A model generated the notes under the pieces. That model was not told where the DNA came from and searched no databases. It saw only the letters and a list, made by a program, of their open reading frames with translations. A stretch of 49,238 nucleotides of DNA from a virus, in IMG/VR virus record IMGVR_UViG_3300050821_002519, positions 1-49,238 of that record, one strand, 5' to 3'. Positions 13,197-32,858 of the stretch are shown here, in pieces. The translations under genes and the position numbers were made by a program. How positions within the stretch are numbered: position 1 is the first letter of the stretch; every line of letters starts with the position of its first letter.

Positions 13197-16100
13197 ATGG
13201 CAGACCCGAACGGCATAGTGGCGCGCACGGTCGCCGCGCTGCGCTATGCCTGGACGGGCAACATGGATTGGTTCGGCCCGCTCGATCCCTTGCCTGATCA
13301 GGCACCCCCTGAGGTCAAGGGTCGCGCCTGGGACTACCCGGTCGGCTCGAACCTCAATTACGTACCGCGCAAAGCGGAGCCTATCAGCTTCCACAAGCTG
13401 AAGAACCTCGCCAACAACTGCGGCCCATTGAAGCTTGTCATGGGCCGCCAGCGCGATCTCGTGAAGGCGCTGGAATGGTCGATCAAGCCCAAGGCAAAGC
13501 AGGCCAAGGGCGCCGCGATCGATCCGCAGATCGCGGCCATCACGGCGATCCTCGAATATCCCGATCGCGAACATGATTGGTCACAGTGGATCAACGGGTT
13601 CCTCGACCAGCTATTCGTGATCGACGCGCTGACGATCTACCCGCGCAAGACGCGCGGCGGCGATCTCTACGCGCTCGAACTGATCGACGGCGCGACCATC
13701 ACGCCGCTCATCGATTCAAGCGGTCGCCGGCCGGTGGCGCCGGACGAAGCCTATCAGCAGATCCTCAAGGGGCTGCCGGCGGTTCATTATTCGACCGACG
13801 AGATCATCTATTACCCGGAGAATTACCGGGTCGATCGCATCTACGGCTACAGCCGCGTCGAGATGCTGGTCGACGAGGTCGAGACCATGATCGCGCGCCT
13901 GAAGAGCCAGAAAGGGTTCTTCGAGCGCGGCAACATCGGCAAGGGCTTCTTTGAGGCACCACCGACCTACAACCCGGACCAGACCAAGGCGCTTGAGACG
14001 CATTGGAACGCGCTCATGTCGTCGGACGGCGGGCGCCGTCTGGCCGATCAGAACCAAGTACCCTGGGTGCCCAGCGGAACGAAGTTCAACGAGACGAAGA
14101 TCGACATCTTCGAGCCAGCCTTCGACGAATGGCTGATCCGCCTGATCTGCTTCCTGTTCGACGTCGCGCCGACCCCGTTCCTCAAGCAGGCCGGACTCGG
14201 TCACGGCAGTGCCACCACCGACAAGGAGGCATCGGAAGAAGGCGGCATCGCGCAGCTGAAGCAGTTGATTCGTCGGCTGATGAACCGCATCCTCGCAGTC
14301 CATTTCCAGCGCCCCGATCTCGAATTTGCGTGGCAGGAAGACAACGAACCTGACCCGAAGACTGCTGCGGATATCGCCAACACCCGCCTTCGCAACGGCT
14401 CGCTGACGATCAATCGCTACCTCGATCGCATGGGTGAAGACCGGATCGAGGGCGGCGACGATGCGCTGATCTACACCGCGACCGGCGCTGTGAAGCTGGC
14501 CGATGTCATCGACCCGCCACCTCCGCCTCCACCGTCCGTGCAATTGGTGCCGGGGCAGGATGCCGACGCGATCGACGACAAGACGCCTGCCAATGACGAC
14601 GGGCCGCCAGGAAAACTCGCCAAGGAAGCCGGTGGCGACGACCAGGCTAAATTCACCAACCTTATCGCCTCGTATCTGTCGAAGCGCGGGGCCATCATCG
14701 CCAAGCAGATCGCCGACGCACTGGGCATCGCGACACCGGACGCAGCTGCCATCGCGAATGCGCTCGATGGCGTCGATTGGGATTGGTCGGACCTCGCCGA
14801 CTCCGCCGAGACGATCCTTTCCGGCATCGCTGTCTCAGCCGGCACCGAAGCGGTCTCAAAGCTCGGACTTTTCGATAAGGACACGCTGGCCAAGGTCAGC
14901 GAGCGCGCGACAGCCTATGCCGCCGACCGCGCCGCCGAACTGGTCGGCATGAAGGTTGTCGATGGCGAACTCGTCGATAATCCTGATGCGGCCTGGTCGA
15001 TTTCATCGGCGACCCGCGACATGCTGCGCGGCACGATCACCAATGCGGTGGAGGCCGGCGCATCGAACGACACGCTGGCGAAGGACATCGCGGACTCTGC
15101 GGCTTTCTCCCGCGAGCGGGCAATGACGATCGCGCGCACCGAGACCGCCAAGGCCGACGTGCAGGGTTCGCGCGCGGGCTGGAAGGTAAGCGGCCTCGTC
15201 GCCGGCCGCCAATGGCTCGCGGGCGATGGCTGCTGCGACGAGTGCCAAGCGCTCGACGGCGAGATTGTCGGCATCGACGAGGAATTCCCCGACGGCGATG
15301 CCCCGCTTCACCCGAACTGTCTACCTGGGGACAGCCTTGTAGCGGCCTGTGGCGACATCTCGGGCGTTAGTCAGCGCTGGTATGATGGTGATCTCGTCGT
15401 CATCAATACTGCCGCTGGCCATCATCTCTCCTGCACCCCGAACCACCCGGTACTCACGTCGAGCGGATGGGTCGCGGCTCGCCACCTCGATCTTGGTGGC
15501 GACGTAATCAGCTGTCGCCTCGGTGATGGGATAACCATCGATGGCGGCGACCACGAGAATATGCCAGCCCGCATCGAGGATGTAGCGGAAGCGTTCCGCC
15601 GTTCGGAGCAGGTGGCGGCCGTGCCAGTGCCAGTGTCCGCCGAAGACTTCCACGGCGACGGGAAAAGCTCCGAGGTCGCAATTATATGGACCGATCGCGC
15701 ATTGCGGCACGACGCCAATGCCACGATCTGCAAGCATTGCGGCAAGGACCTTCTCGTTGTCCGAGACGTGGAGTTTGCGGCTCATCACAGTTCTGGCGCG
15801 CCGAACCTTCTCGTCGATCGAGTGCGTGCGCCCGGTCGCGGCGGCGTGGGCAGCCTCGACCTGGGCGCGGCGACGTTCGGGGCTCATGCTTTCCCAGGCG
15901 AGGCGCCTGGCGTCGCTCATACTGCGCCGAGCGATGCCCCGCGCTGCCAGAATGCGCGAGATGACGCTGCGGGAGACCCCGAAGTCTTTGGCGATGCGTT
16001 GTTCAGCGCCCCCGGCGAGGTACGCAATGGCAATCGCTTGCTCGTCGACGGTGGTTCGGGGTCGGATAGCAACACCAGCCTTGGTAAGGGCGCTTCTTAC

Positions 16101-16484
16101 GACGCGGTTGCTGACCCCGAGTTTGCCGCAAATCCCCGCGACATCGTCGCCACCTTCGTAAAGGCGGACAGCCTCAGCCTTGATAGTCCCGGGAGTCTTG
16201 GGGCGTCCGAGATCGCCGCGCTCGCGCAGGGCGCGCGAGACAGCGCTCATGGAAAACCCGAACTCAGCGCCGACTTCAGCAAGGGTTTTCCCGGACCAGT
16301 ATTCGTTGACCATATTGTCAATGTAGCTCGCCATCAATTTTCTGGGCACGTCTATAACCTTGATACAGCAGGAGGTTATTACATAGCCGAGGGCATTGTA
16401 ACGCACAACTGCGAATGCACAGAGCTAGCCGTGCTTCCCGAAGACATGCCCGACGGCGCGGAGAGCGCCGAGACCGACGACTGA
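13197..16484 (+). CDS. Portal-MuF fusion protein interrupted by an intein
   Basis: 1095-residue precursor. Residues 1 to about 440 are an HK97-type portal (IYYPENYRVDRIYGYSRVEM, AGLGHGSATTDKEASEEGG). A Pro-rich linker near 440-450 leads to a helical region and a MuF head-morphogenesis domain (ARTETAKADVQGSRAGW, CCDECQALDGEIV, PLHPN). The MuF HPN-CxC motif is split: Cys708 starts an intein and Asn1071 ends it, with Cys1072 (CECTEL) as the +1 residue. Splicing would yield a 731-residue portal-MuF protein for the head vertex. Because the host motif is essential, inefficient splicing would cost the phage its head. Confidence 0.93.
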   Translation: MADPNGIVARTVAALRYAWTGNMDWFGPLDPLPDQAPPEVKGRAWDYPVGSNLNYVPRKAEPISFHKLKNLANNCGPLKLVMGRQRDLVKALEWSIKPKAKQAKGAAIDPQIAAITAILEYPDREHDWSQWINGFLDQLFVIDALTIYPRKTRGGDLYALELIDGATITPLIDSSGRRPVAPDEAYQQILKGLPAVHYSTDEIIYYPENYRVDRIYGYSRVEMLVDEVETMIARLKSQKGFFERGNIGKGFFEAPPTYNPDQTKALETHWNALMSSDGGRRLADQNQVPWVPSGTKFNETKIDIFEPAFDEWLIRLICFLFDVAPTPFLKQAGLGHGSATTDKEASEEGGIAQLKQLIRRLMNRILAVHFQRPDLEFAWQEDNEPDPKTAADIANTRLRNGSLTINRYLDRMGEDRIEGGDDALIYTATGAVKLADVIDPPPPPPPSVQLVPGQDADAIDDKTPANDDGPPGKLAKEAGGDDQAKFTNLIASYLSKRGAIIAKQIADALGIATPDAAAIANALDGVDWDWSDLADSAETILSGIAVSAGTEAVSKLGLFDKDTLAKVSERATAYAADRAAELVGMKVVDGELVDNPDAAWSISSATRDMLRGTITNAVEAGASNDTLAKDIADSAAFSRERAMTIARTETAKADVQGSRAGWKVSGLVAGRQWLAGDGCCDECQALDGEIVGIDEEFPDGDAPLHPNCLPGDSLVAACGDISGVSQRWYDGDLVVINTAAGHHLSCTPNHPVLTSSGWVAARHLDLGGDVISCRLGDGITIDGGDHENMPARIEDVAEAFRRSEQVAAVPVPVSAEDFHGDGKSSEVAIIWTDRALRHDANATICKHCGKDLLVVRDVEFAAHHSSGAPNLLVDRVRAPGRGGVGSLDLGAATFGAHAFPGEAPGVAHTAPSDAPRCQNARDDAAGDPEVFGDALFSAPGEVRNGNRLLVDGGSGSDSNTSLGKGASYDAVADPEFAANPRDIVATFVKADSLSLDSPGSLGASEIAALAQGARDSAHGKPELSADFSKGFPGPVFVDHIVNVARHQFSGHVYNLDTAGGYYIAEGIVTHNCECTELAVLPEDMPDGAESAETDD
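15318..16409 (+). mobile_element. Intein in the MuF domain
   Basis: 364 codons. Block A is CLPGDSLVAA with the nucleophile Cys1. Block B is SCTPNHPVLTSSGWV, with the TxxH motif at T40-H43. Blocks F and G are GHVYNLDTAGGYYIAEG and IVTHN, ending in the His-Asn pair before Cys+1. Splicing blocks account for roughly 90 N-terminal and 45 C-terminal residues. The 230 residues between them show no LAGLIDADG or HNH motif in this frame, are Gly/Ala/Asp-rich, and coincide with an opposite-strand endonuclease gene. Confidence 0.92.
15321..16334 (-). CDS. Homing endonuclease (HTH repeats plus EDxHD/Vsr-like domain), antisense inside the intein
   Basis: 337 residues from ATG 16334; the frame is open to 16406. 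GTG 16349 with AAGG upstream is an alternative start. Three helix-turn-helix units lie in the N-terminal half (LAEVGAEFGFSMSAVSRAL, VAGICGKLGVSNRVVRSAL, QRIAKDFGVSRSVISRIL). About residues 195-275 form a Vsr-like nuclease: NEKVLAAML, GPYNCDLG, VAVEVFGGHWHWH, LDAGWHILVV. The tail has EYRVVRGAGE, seen in related phage nucleases. This matches the EDxHD homing endonucleases described with split inteins. The stop codon is the complement of intein codon 2, so the frame fills the intein exactly. No convincing promoter was found. Confidence 0.85.
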   Translation of the reverse strand: MASYIDNMVNEYWSGKTLAEVGAEFGFSMSAVSRALRERGDLGRPKTPGTIKAEAVRLYEGGDDVAGICGKLGVSNRVVRSALTKAGVAIRPRTTVDEQAIAIAYLAGGAEQRIAKDFGVSRSVISRILAARGIARRSMSDARRLAWESMSPERRRAQVEAAHAAATGRTHSIDEKVRRARTVMSRKLHVSDNEKVLAAMLADRGIGVVPQCAIGPYNCDLGAFPVAVEVFGGHWHWHGRHLLRTAERFRYILDAGWHILVVAAIDGYPITEATADYVATKIEVASRDPSARREYRVVRGAGEMMASGSIDDDEITIIPALTNARDVATGRYKAVPR

Positions 16485-16501
16485 CCCCCAAGGAGACCCC
16501 G

Positions 16502-17992
16502 ATGTTCATTCCGCTGATGAAGGCCGACGCCGCGCAGCGCCGGGTTTATGGCTCGATCGACGAGACACTCGACCGCGCCGGCGAGATCCTCGATTACGCG
16601 ACCGCCAAGCCGGCCTTCGAAGCATGGTCGAAGCATTTCGTCGACGCGACTGGCGGCAAGTCGCTCGGCAACATTCGCGCACAGCACGACCTGAAAAAGG
16701 CGGCCGGCAAGCTCGTCGAGCTCGACTTCGACGACGATGCCAGGCGCATCAGTTTCTGCGCCGAGATCGTCGACGCGCAGGAATGGGAAAAGGTTGTCGC
16801 GGGCGTTTACACCGGCTTTTCGCCCGGCGGTTCCTACGCCAAGCGCTGGCCCGACGGGATGCACAAGCGCTACACCCCCAAGGTCGGTGAACTTTCGATC
16901 GTCGACATGCCCTGCATTCCGTCCGGCACCTTCACGATGGTGAAGGCGGACGGCGTCGAGGAAGAGATCGAGTTCGTTCTCGCCAAGGCCTACGAGCCGG
17001 GCAACGAAGCGACCAAGGCCCGCTCCGAAGAACTGGCCAAGGCGGCTGGCGGCGATGCACTCGCCAAGAACTTCGTCGTCCAGGCCCGCGCCGACCTCAT
17101 CGCCGAGAACGCGACCGAGGCGCTGGCGAAGATGGCGGAAGCCGTCGAGGCACCGGCAGAGCCGGAAGCGGCACCTGATCCTGCGGCCGCGCTTGCGGAC
17201 TCGCTCGCCAAGGCGGACATAGCGCTGGCCGTGCCAGTCGACCTCGACGCCAGCCCCTTCGCCGACCTCACCAAAGTTGCCTCAGCGCTGAAGTTGCTCT
17301 CTGCTGACCCGCTCACCAAGTCGCTGTGGTCCGCCGATTGGCTCAATCGCCTGCTCTGCGAATTTGCCGCGCTCCAGTCGGAGGTCACGTGGGACGCCAA
17401 ATATGGCGACCCCGGCAATGAGGCGGACATGTCGATCCCCGCCCAGGCCGCCAAGATCGTCAAGGCGATCGGCGATCTGCTCATCACCATGACGCAGGAA
17501 GGTGTCGCCGACATCCTCGCCGGCATCGAGGCGAACGGTGTCGAGATCGTCATCATCGACGGCGACGACATGGCGCTCGCCAACCAGATCGTCGATCTCG
17601 TGAAGGCCGACACCGCCCTCATGGAGAAGGCCGGCGCCCGCAACAGCAAGGCGGACGGCGAGAAGATCCAATCCATGCACGACAACTCGGTCGCGCTTGG
17701 CGCCACGTGCGACACGTCGGCGGAGAAGGCCGTGCATCTCGCCGCCGAGAACGAGCGCCTCGCCAAGGCCGTTGGTGATGCCACGCCGCGCATCGACGCG
17801 CTCGTTGCCCGTGTCGGCACGCTGACCGAGGAACTCACGCTCCTCAAGGCGCAGCCGATGCCGCCCAAGGGCGCGATCCTCGCTATCTCCAAAGAGGCCG
17901 ACAACGACCTCGAGAAGACCGCGATCGTCGAGGACGAGTCTCACCTACCCCTTGTCGAACAGGCCCGCCGCGCCGCGCAGCGCTACGCCTAA
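16502..17992 (+). CDS. XkdF-like prohead protease with C-terminal scaffold region
   Basis: 496 residues; AGGAGA precedes ATG 16502. Residues 1-145 follow the XkdF/S78-type head maturation protease pattern: RRVYGSIDE, GNIRAQHD, VYTGFSPGGSY, ELSIVDMPCIPSGTF. The remaining 350 residues are Ala/Glu-rich with coiled-coil stretches near the end (AENERLAKAVGDATPRIDAL), as expected of a scaffold fused to the protease. It probably shapes the prohead and then cleaves scaffold and capsid. It sits directly before the major capsid gene. Confidence 0.75.
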   Translation: MFIPLMKADAAQRRVYGSIDETLDRAGEILDYATAKPAFEAWSKHFVDATGGKSLGNIRAQHDLKKAAGKLVELDFDDDARRISFCAEIVDAQEWEKVVAGVYTGFSPGGSYAKRWPDGMHKRYTPKVGELSIVDMPCIPSGTFTMVKADGVEEEIEFVLAKAYEPGNEATKARSEELAKAAGGDALAKNFVVQARADLIAENATEALAKMAEAVEAPAEPEAAPDPAAALADSLAKADIALAVPVDLDASPFADLTKVASALKLLSADPLTKSLWSADWLNRLLCEFAALQSEVTWDAKYGDPGNEADMSIPAQAAKIVKAIGDLLITMTQEGVADILAGIEANGVEIVIIDGDDMALANQIVDLVKADTALMEKAGARNSKADGEKIQSMHDNSVALGATCDTSAEKAVHLAAENERLAKAVGDATPRIDALVARVGTLTEELTLLKAQPMPPKGAILAISKEADNDLEKTAIVEDESHLPLVEQARRAAQRYA

Positions 17993-29894: not shown

Positions 29895-32858
29895 GTGGGC
29901 GGCAAAACCACCTCCACCTCATCGCCCAAGCTCAACCAGATGTCGGTCCAGTCGTCGTCGCTGGGCCTGCCGATCACGCTCGGCTGGGGACGTGGGCGGG
30001 CAAAGTGCAACCTCGGTGATTATGTCGCCTTCAAAGCGACCGCACACACCACGACGACCAGCGCGGGCAAGGGCCTCGGTGGCGGGTCGAAGGACACGAC
30101 CTACACCTATACCGCGTCGATCATCATGCACATCTGCGAAGGCCCGATCCTCGGCATTCGCACCGTATACCGCGACACCTCGGTCTTCACCGACGGCGCT
30201 ACCACCGCGCTGGCGCAGGCTGGTCTTAGCGTTGCGCTCGGCTCGCCGACGCAATCGCCATGGTCGTACATGGTCTCGCAGTTTCCGACCCATGCGCTGG
30301 CCTATTCGGGCATCGCCTATGTGTACGCGCAGGACTATGCGCTCGGCGACAGCGCAACGCTGTCCAACCACAGCTTCGAGATTGATTTCGAGATCCAACT
30401 GGGCGGCGGCGTCCCAGATGCCGACCCCAAAGACATTCTCACCGATTTCCTGACCAGCGCGTCGCACGGCGTGCCCGGCTGGGGTGCTGGCCTCATCGGC
30501 GATCTCTCCGACTGGTCGCTCTATTGCCGCGCGAACAACCTGCTGCTGTCGCCGGTCCTGGAATCGCAGGCGGCCGCCAACACCATCATTACCGAATGGT
30601 GTCTCGCCACCAACTCGGCGCCGTTCTGGTCGGAGGGCGTGCTGAAGGTCCGCCCCTATGGCGATACTGCGGCGACCGGCAACGGCGTGACGTGGACGCC
30701 GAACCTGACCCCGATCTACGACCTCACCGAGGACGATTTCGAGGCGTCCGATACAGGCCCCGTGGTGCTCGACATCGTCGACCAGTCCGACGCCTACAAC
30801 ATCGTCCAGCTCGAATTCCTCGACCGTGCCAACCAGTACAATGTCGGCATCGCGACGGCCTCCGACCTCGCCAACATCTTCGAGTACGGCGCGCGCAAGC
30901 AGGATCCGACCACGGTCCATTCGATCGTGGATGCCGGGATCGCGCAGCACGCGGCGCAGCTTTATCTCCAGCGCGTCCTCTATGTCCGCGAGCAATATCT
31001 GTTCACGCTGCCGTGGAATTTCGTGCTGCTCGAGCCGTGCGATTATCTGTCGCTGACGACCACGACCGACGAGTTGCAACTGGACAATCTGCTGGTCCGC
31101 GTCGTCGAGATCGACGAGGACGAAAACGGGATGCTCGCCTTCACCTGCGAGGGCGTGCCGGGCGGTGCCGCATCGGCCGCGCTCTATGCCTCGCACTCGT
31201 CGGGCGGCCACCAAACGAACGCCGATGTCCCGCCTGGCCCGGTCTCGACGCCGGTCCTGATCAATGCCCCGACATCGCTCACCGGCGGCGATCCCGAGGT
31301 TTGGTGCGCCGTCGCCTCGTCCTCGACGACATGGGGCGGCTGCGAGGTCTGGATCAGCGTCGACAATGTCTCCTATGCGCGGGTCGGCGTCATCGAAGGT
31401 CCGGCGCGCTACGGTGTTCTGACGGCGGCGCTCGCCAACCATGCCGACCCCGATACGACCAACACGCTGTCGGTCGACCTGTCATCATCACTGGGCACGC
31501 TCGGCAGCGCGACGGCGACCGAGGCCAATGCCGGCGGCTCGCTGTGCCTCGTCGGCAACGAACTCATCACATATCAGACCGCGACCCTCACCGGCGCTAA
31601 CGCCTATAACCTGACGACGCTGCGCCGCGGTTTCGAAGCGACGATCCCGGCCTCGCACAGCGTCGGCGCCGAGTTCGTCCGCCTCGACGATGCGATCTTC
31701 AAGTTCAGCTATGCGAGCCTCAACGTCGGCTCGACGATCTATGTGAAATTTCCGTCGTTCAATATCTTCGACCGCGCGCCTGAAGATCTGTCGACGGTGA
31801 CGGCCTATACCGTGGCGCTCGCACCGGCGACCGCGCTGCCGGATTCCGTCACCGGTCTAGCGCTTGCCCATAGCTGGGACGGTTCAGCCCTGTCGGTGGT
31901 CTGCGACCCGTCGGCGCGCGCGATCTCGTACAAGTTCCGCTTCTACCTGCCCGATGAAACGACGCTCAAGCGCGAGATCGTCACCACGACGCCGGCCGCG
32001 ACTTACACCTCGACGCTGGCGGCGCAGGACGGTGCGGCGCGGGCCTATCACATCGAGGTGATCGCTTCGAACGATGCCGGCGATGCGGCCCCGTCGTCAT
32101 GGCTATCGGTCACCAACGCCGCGCCGGCGACGCTCAGCGGTGTTGCCACCTCCGGCACGACCGCGACCGATGGCGCCGTCACCTGCACCGCATCGTCCGA
32201 CCCTGACCTAGCCGGCTACGTCGTCTTCTATTCCGGCACATCTGGGTTCGACCCATCTACCAGCGGCGGCGTCGTCAGTTCCGGCATTCCGTCGGTCTCA
32301 ATCTTCGGGCTGGCAGCCGGCACCTATTACGCCCGCATCGCCGCCTATGACGGCTGGACCGGCGTTCCGTCGCTGCTCAATCTGTCGAGCGAGGTCAGCT
32401 TCACGATCTCGACGGGTGGTGGGGCGGCTCCATCTGGCGGTGGCACAGGTGGTGGCGGCTGGGGCGGCGCGTGCTGCACGCTCGAAACGCTGATCCAGAT
32501 GGCGAACGATGGGCGTACCGGGCCGGGGAGCTGGAAACGTGGCGGCGATGTCGTGCCCGGTGACTGGGTCTGGACGCAGCACGAGCGGACGCTGGCCTGG
32601 GGCGCTTATCAGGTGACGTTTGCGCAGACGCTGGAGCGCCCGATCTGGTCGCTGTCCGGCTATCCCGATGCGACCGCAGAGCATCCGTTCTGGATCACCG
32701 GCACCGGGTGGGTCTTGATGGGCGACATCGGCACGCCGGCCGGGACCGCAGCGATCCGCCACCTGACCGTCGACCGCGCCCATACCTACGTCGCCCGCCA
32801 TCCCGACGCGGACGTCGGCATCCTCTCGCACAACAAGCGCTCGACGCCTGACGGCTAA
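29895..32858 (+). CDS. Tail-tip host-specificity protein (gp15/J-like) with C-terminal Hint domain
   Basis: 987 residues from GTG 29895. The first about 450 residues follow the GTA gp15 / J-like pattern (PITLGWGRGRAKCN, CEGPILGIRTVYRD, WCLATNSAPFWSEG, TEDDFEASDTGPVV). Then come fibronectin-like beta domains, including LDDAIFKFSYA and YTSTLAAQDGAARAYHIEV, and a Gly-rich hinge. Residues 860-987 are an intein-like Hint domain. The main body would form the tail tip that contacts the host surface. Confidence 0.87.
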   Translation: MGGKTTSTSSPKLNQMSVQSSSLGLPITLGWGRGRAKCNLGDYVAFKATAHTTTTSAGKGLGGGSKDTTYTYTASIIMHICEGPILGIRTVYRDTSVFTDGATTALAQAGLSVALGSPTQSPWSYMVSQFPTHALAYSGIAYVYAQDYALGDSATLSNHSFEIDFEIQLGGGVPDADPKDILTDFLTSASHGVPGWGAGLIGDLSDWSLYCRANNLLLSPVLESQAAANTIITEWCLATNSAPFWSEGVLKVRPYGDTAATGNGVTWTPNLTPIYDLTEDDFEASDTGPVVLDIVDQSDAYNIVQLEFLDRANQYNVGIATASDLANIFEYGARKQDPTTVHSIVDAGIAQHAAQLYLQRVLYVREQYLFTLPWNFVLLEPCDYLSLTTTTDELQLDNLLVRVVEIDEDENGMLAFTCEGVPGGAASAALYASHSSGGHQTNADVPPGPVSTPVLINAPTSLTGGDPEVWCAVASSSTTWGGCEVWISVDNVSYARVGVIEGPARYGVLTAALANHADPDTTNTLSVDLSSSLGTLGSATATEANAGGSLCLVGNELITYQTATLTGANAYNLTTLRRGFEATIPASHSVGAEFVRLDDAIFKFSYASLNVGSTIYVKFPSFNIFDRAPEDLSTVTAYTVALAPATALPDSVTGLALAHSWDGSALSVVCDPSARAISYKFRFYLPDETTLKREIVTTTPAATYTSTLAAQDGAARAYHIEVIASNDAGDAAPSSWLSVTNAAPATLSGVATSGTTATDGAVTCTASSDPDLAGYVVFYSGTSGFDPSTSGGVVSSGIPSVSIFGLAAGTYYARIAAYDGWTGVPSLLNLSSEVSFTISTGGGAAPSGGGTGGGGWGGACCTLETLIQMANDGRTGPGSWKRGGDVVPGDWVWTQHERTLAWGAYQVTFAQTLERPIWSLSGYPDATAEHPFWITGTGWVLMGDIGTPAGTAAIRHLTVDRAHTYVARHPDADVGILSHNKRSTPDG
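32472..32858 (+). other. Hint/BIL-type autoprocessing domain at the protein C-terminus
   Basis: Residues 860-987 begin CCTLETLIQMANDGR (block A-like, tandem Cys), continue with VVPGDWVW, ATAEHPFWITGTGWVLM (block B-like His), VDRAHTYVA and end GILSHNKRSTPDG. His-Asn is present, but the next residue is Lys, not Cys/Ser/Thr, and only seven residues follow. Splicing is therefore unlikely; C-terminal or N-terminal cleavage, as in bacterial intein-like (BIL) domains, is expected. Similar domains are known in phage structural proteins. Confidence 0.78.

Follow-up and report, generated by a model that had tools for sequence, protein, structure and literature searches.

Related systems

Inteins are taught as elements that carry an endonuclease in frame, spliced from the same precursor. 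The subject here is an intein in the portal-MuF gene of a viral DNA stretch of 49,238 nucleotides (nt; IMG/VR record IMGVR_UViG_3300050821_002519, positions 1 to 49,238; hereafter the window), which is very probably a mobile intein with its homing endonuclease gene on the opposite strand. It resembles the in-frame endonuclease inteins of the PI-SceI and PhoVMA/TliVMA type in its Hint domain, in its location at a conserved site of an essential protein, and in having an endonuclease gene within the intein DNA; however, the nuclease is here a separate protein of the opposite strand, and the in-frame middle is a disordered filler. The 'fractured genes' that Dassa et al. described in 2009 are said to combine split inteins and a free-standing Vsr-like endonuclease with a host gene broken in two. 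A Vsr-like nuclease as a separate gene alongside a phage intein is common to those systems and to this locus; here, however, the host gene and the intein form one open frame, and the splicing motifs are overlapped by an antisense nuclease gene. The sense frame is continuous in 112 of 113 loci, so that the host gene is not fractured as in the split-intein case. Work on a Vsr-like nuclease as a separate gene with a phage intein is also cited in PMC12350094.

I-Bth0305I is a group I intron homing endonuclease of the EDxHD type with a tethered DNA-binding region (PMC3943268). The nuclease described here shares its fold (Z 10.9) and the tethered DNA-binding region; but I-Bth0305I is intron-encoded, whereas the present protein belongs to an intein, is encoded antisense and has an array of helix-turn-helix (HTH) units, and the last D of the EDxHD motif has no certain counterpart in it. 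Antisense homing endonuclease genes have been reported in the nuclear group I introns Dir.S956-2 and Dsq.L2066 (PMC9548176). There too, the endonuclease gene lies opposite the splicing element; however, that element is a ribosomal RNA intron, whose other strand is free of the need for an open reading frame (ORF), whereas both strands code in register here. In the open-access literature (key subscription papers lay outside the scope), antisense endonuclease genes were found only in group I introns and none in inteins, in line with the preliminary description of this DNA, which named no antisense nested precedent. An opposite-strand nuclease within an intein has a strong claim to be a new architecture. 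It represents a third route by which endonucleases invade inteins, beside fusion and splitting.

The intein and the opposite-strand gene

The portal-MuF gene (Table 1) is uninterrupted by stops over 1095 amino acids, with the portal domain at residues 111-408 and the MuF domain at residues 611-708; portal and MuF are united in this single ORF. The preliminary description had proposed an intein with splicing blocks at both ends, and the C1, TPNHP, HVYNL and terminal HN/C+1 elements (the slash marks the splice junction) are indeed in place. Among 71 inteins of this type, all of which match the PF14890 profile, C1, G24, N42-H43-P44 and N364 are invariant and H363 is nearly invariant; the C+1 residue after the intein is also present in the window. 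In the AlphaFold model of the sense protein, the Hint parts have a predicted local distance difference test score (pLDDT) of about 96 and match inteins in the PDB; the middle is mostly below 50, i.e. disordered. The sense model folds only as an intein, and the top matches of its fold search were mostly inteins (E 0.003-0.06); hedgehog proteins and others accounted for a few lower-ranking matches. No nuclease family was detected in the sense frame by profile searches of the window and its relatives, as the preliminary description had held. The sense motif FHGDG (plus strand, 15648-15662), which is the complement of the nuclease residues VAVE, is nearly invariant, and in the sense model a confident stretch around residues 81-100 immediately precedes it. 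A sense-strand role for FHGDG is possible.

Table 1. Positions of the intein, the antisense gene and their parts in the window
Feature	Position	Strand	Support
Portal-MuF fusion gene, intein-interrupted	13197..16484	+	PF04860 E 8e-13, PF04233 E 8e-12, phrog_2662 E 3e-73
Intein, 364 aa, C1...HN/C+1, at HPN/CECTEL of MuF	15318..16409	+	PF14890 E 2e-5; TIGR01445/TIGR01443; invariant residues; model
Splicing block B, TPNHPVLT; complement encodes the nuclease terminal beta-hairpin YRVVRG	15435..15458	+
Splicing block F, HVYNL; complement carries the antisense gene's ribosome-binding site and start codon	16347..16361	+
Splicing block G, IVTHN	16395..16409	+
Putative antisense homing endonuclease gene, 342 aa, GTG start (probable), TAG stop	15321..16349	-	conserved start; antisense pN/pS; AlphaFold pLDDT 93
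Shine-Dalgarno-like AAGGTT, 6 nt before GTG	16356..16361	-	-3.3 kcal/mol; GGAGGTT in many relatives
Three HTH units (predicted DNA-binding array), residues about 7-45, 53-92, 103-137	15939..16331	-	HTH_23 E 2e-9, HTH_28, Cbp1-like HTH; model helices
Vsr/I-Bth0305I-type nuclease domain, residues 193-313	15411..15773	-	PF18741; Vsr/3r3p fold matches
Invariant nuclease residues E199, D225, E234, R253	15755-15753, 15677-15675, 15650-15648, 15593-15591	-

On the minus strand, an ORF of 361 codons runs from 16406 to 15321, and its codons are, one for one, the reverse complements of plus codons. Its TAG stop (15321) is the complement of the CTA codon of intein Leu2, which bears out the preliminary description; the openness of the ORF was also right, whereas the listed start was not the likeliest one. 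By comparison with the relatives, the nuclease probably starts at the GTG at 16349-16347, behind AAGGTT; starts at 16406 or at the ATG at 16334 were rejected in its favour. This start was set by homology, overriding the ATG at codon 32 proposed by the automatic search. In 80 of 92 loci the nuclease start is the complement of the block F His (HVYNL or FHGxVYNL), and in one subclade it lies nine codons further in. The Shine-Dalgarno sequence lies opposite the two codons that encode the L of VYNL(Q/E) and the residue after it, and its duplex with the anti-Shine-Dalgarno sequence reaches -3 kcal/mol or better in 88 of the 92 loci. Codon choice at both ends is biased: the start His codon is CAT, giving ATG, in 72 of the 80 loci (33 expected), and intein Leu2 is TTA or CTA, giving the nuclease stop, in 58 of 64 loci (8.6 expected).

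The evidence supports the antisense frame as a genuine gene under selection, which encodes a Vsr/EDxHD-like endonuclease bearing an HTH array. The AlphaFold model of this protein has a mean pLDDT of 93 and places an alpha/beta nuclease after the helical HTH units; the three HTH units are predicted to be a DNA-binding array. In VIA-align comparisons, the nuclease domain matched Vsr (1cw0) with Z 11.7, and the match to I-Bth0305I (3r3p) extended over 93/97 residues. The terminal hairpin YRVVRG belongs to the Vsr-like domain, and it is coded opposite the TPNHP of block B. Among 72 nuclease sequences, E199, Y222, D225, E234 and R253 are invariant, and PF18741 matches 46 of them. The nuclease homology of this frame, on which the preliminary description had staked its claim, was thus found by profile and fold searches alike; the HTH units and the Vsr-like nuclease stood, whereas the EDxHD motif could not be completed.

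Selection on the two strands

Openness of the antisense frame within the window is weak evidence by itself. Stops on the minus strand correspond to TTA, CTA and TCA on the plus strand and vice versa, so GC-rich DNA keeps the registered frame open cheaply. Given the TTA/CTA/TCA usage of the window, the probability of 343 open codons is about 0.02; moreover, an antisense ORF of 507 amino acids lies elsewhere in the window (29919-31442, minus), opposite a long plus ORF (29895-32858). The 507-amino-acid ORF is probably a by-product of GC bias. Comparative data, on the other hand, exclude chance openness of the antisense frame in the intein. Over the matched nuclease part, stops are absent from the registered frame of the opposite strand in 112 of 113 loci, whose GC contents span 42-71%, and the remaining two frames hold up to 37 stops. 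On the sense strand, no stops were seen in 92 non-redundant loci versus 311 expected from the nuclease Leu/Ser content and local codon usage; these loci had been selected for openness, but just one was dropped for stops.

The substitution patterns of 31 related pairs differ between parts of the gene. In the centre of the intein, the differences at sense positions 1/2/3 were.411/.168/.248, where sense position 1 is the wobble base of the antisense codons; the corresponding values for the 62 codons at the start of the intein were.239/.087/.267, those for its final 42 codons.239/.115/.345, and those for the extein.350/.282/.555. Central position 1 exceeded position 3 in all 31 pairs, including 18 pairs that share no locus. 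Ratios of nonsynonymous to synonymous differences (pN/pS, Nei-Gojobori, 14 pairs) in the centre were 0.31 antisense and 0.96 sense, versus 1.16 antisense and 0.40 sense in the extein. They were 0.65 antisense and 0.36 sense in the C-terminal Hint part, and 0.60 and 0.44, respectively, in the N-terminal one. These are simple ratios that take no account of the overlap, and loci are shared between some pairs; the contrast is nonetheless large and mirror-imaged. The preliminary description had the whole 1 kb under constraint on both strands. Protein constraint on both strands is confined to the N-terminal Hint part; the central intein is constrained as protein on the antisense strand only, with the sense strand merely kept free of stops, and the C-terminal Hint part is mainly sense-constrained.

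Distribution, probable mobility and decay

By tblastn, the antisense protein was detected in 117 phage records, and it lies opposite a MuF gene in those examined. The phages include those of Gordonia, the Jersey- and Kagunaviruses of Salmonella and E. coli, and phages of Vibrio, Aggregatibacter, Idiomarina, Pseudomonas and Cronobacter; a few Caulobacter matches span the HTH part only. A search with the sense intein returned largely the same records. Further loci were found in Klebsiella, Edwardsiella and Pantoea phages and on a Chloroflexota plasmid. The antisense gene is unannotated in all 21 records first examined. IMG/VR contained 374 relatives, 80 of which were retrieved, and bacterial genomes contained 11 (Planctomycetota, Chloroflexi, Acidobacteria, Firmicutes, actinobacteria and others). 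An alignment of 16 sequences was too diverse for scanning and a closer alignment was used instead; the P0002 query of viral contigs gave no match.

Empty MuF sites are common, which fits the expectation for homing: the joined flanks of the intein of E. coli phage Snoke match at least 128 uninterrupted phage MuF genes, and those of the intein of Gordonia phage Vivi2 at least 64. Geodirt is a sister phage of Vivi2 that lacks the intein. The inteins of Salmonella phage LPSE1 and Snoke are 95% identical and their exteins 68%, an illustrative pair since pairs were picked by intein similarity; the flanks of some Gordonia pairs equal or exceed the inteins in similarity. In one record (L073/L115, IMGVR_UViG_3300012005_000094), the MuF gene has no intein and is followed immediately on its 3' side by a free-standing antisense nuclease gene (L073:3968-4822). 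The strand opposite this nuclease ORF holds five stops and an apparent remnant of a decayed Hint part. The preliminary description would have been undermined by relatives that keep the intein with a broken antisense frame; such relatives exist but are rare. In two loci (L156 and L197), both without the start-giving His codon, the intein is open and the nuclease has decayed by stops, and in L179 one frameshift disrupts both. Counted from the intein side, the nuclease is intact in 55 non-redundant loci versus these three broken ones. Rare broken nucleases with a kept intein fit the homing cycle, because the endonuclease may decay while MuF still needs its intein.

In the Gordonia phages Nordenberg, Lennon and Barsten (L119, L120 and L121), the same MuF site is occupied by another intein, whose antisense ORF also differs. 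This ORF has a LAGLIDADG-like motif and a phmmer match to I-MsoI (E 4e-4, largely over a short stretch), and it also matches PHROG_5046 (E 2e-15), a family named HNH; no Pfam match and no relative in IMG/VR were found for the protein. Between Nordenberg and Barsten, a single comparison, the differences in the centre are 45/5/10 by sense position, with pN/pS of 0.11 antisense and 1.63 sense. Judging from the PHROG_5046 match, the partly short match to I-MsoI and the selection pattern, this second antisense nuclease is tentatively LAGLIDADG-like and unrelated to the Vsr type.

Proposed mechanism and alternative explanations

A homing cycle can be proposed for the intein and its opposite-strand gene. 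The plus-strand messenger RNA would be translated into a portal-MuF precursor, whose terminal Hint parts would fold, excise the intein and ligate HPN to CECTEL; the intein's central part would be filler, maintained stop-free only. The minus strand would be transcribed and translated separately, from signals opposite block F, into the Vsr-type HTH nuclease. This nuclease is predicted to bind and cut intein-less MuF genes across the insertion site, and repair of the break would copy the intein together with the nuclease gene. Both genes and their register, purifying selection on the antisense protein, stop avoidance on the sense strand, the embedded start and stop codons and the empty sites are established by sequence and fold. 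Several points weigh against the cycle. Splicing, transcription and translation of the antisense gene, DNA cleavage at the MuF site, and homing itself, are steps that we infer. The Shine-Dalgarno duplex in the window is weak (-3.3 kcal/mol) and the start is GTG; a scan of positions 15200-16900 found no sigma-70-like promoter near the antisense gene (nor any terminator), although phages may use promoters of other kinds. The nuclease matches from sequence only are also weak, with PF18741 below its curated cut-off in the window and 3r3p at E 0.036; in the EDxHD motif H241 is nearly invariant, and the last D has no certain counterpart.

The antisense frame might instead code for nothing and merely reflect the codon bias of a GC-rich genome, which the low cost of openness in the window and the 507-amino-acid ORF would favour. 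This is hardly credible, since the frame is open even at 42% GC, its codons show stronger constraint as antisense than as sense (pN/pS 0.31 vs 0.96), the antisense fold is confident and matches Vsr, the start and stop codons are selected, and the free-standing copy is still an open frame, with stops having arisen on the strand opposite. It is also very improbable that only the antisense gene matters, with a dead intein and an unspliced MuF protein. The centre of the intein, without sense protein constraint, would agree with this; however, C1, N42-H43-P44 and N364 are invariant and H363 nearly so, the sense pN/pS of the C-terminal Hint part is 0.36, sense stops number 0 against the 311 expected, and the MuF flanks are in frame and, when spliced, match intein-less MuF alleles.

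The antisense protein might also be made and serve mainly as a DNA-binding regulator of late genes, or as an exclusion nuclease that cuts the MuF genes of rival phages. Some phage endonucleases do exclude rival phages, and the three HTH units and the free-standing copy beside an uninterrupted MuF gene point in this direction. A pure regulator, however, would not explain the invariant nuclease residues E199, D225, E234 and R253, and the presence or absence of the intein at the exact site, together with some inteins being more alike than their flanks, argues for mobility. This explanation as a whole is unlikely; exclusion and homing are compatible, and both might be true.

We lean towards a general class of two-faced inteins, with a registered opposite-strand nuclease whose signals are carved from the splicing motifs; the class would have arisen at least twice (Vsr-type and LAGLIDADG-like), freeing the timing of the nuclease from the late structural host gene. 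That the antisense placement permits early production of the nuclease, apart from the late structural gene, is speculative, though such independence would be a plausible advantage, and the timing of nuclease expression becomes directly testable in cultured phages. In hundreds of phages, and in prophages, across several bacterial phyla, most of an intein's DNA encodes a splicing protein on one strand and, in register, a nuclease on the other. Among bacterial viruses, this sense-antisense double coding is a large and old case that can be tested, and its parts are under sense-only, antisense-only or double constraint.

Other insertion sites

Nearly all loci have C1...HN/C inteins of 267-377 amino acids at the same MuF site. 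The same intein type with an antisense nuclease was also found inside a deoxycytidine monophosphate (dCMP) deaminase gene in Virus Rctr197k (L023) and in one further locus (L118); the Rctr197k record labels its dCMP deaminase gene as head morphogenesis protein. In Escherichia phage vB-Eco-KMB36 (L019), the same intein type occupies a second MuF site, DSRTSTT/C...N/CRARDG.

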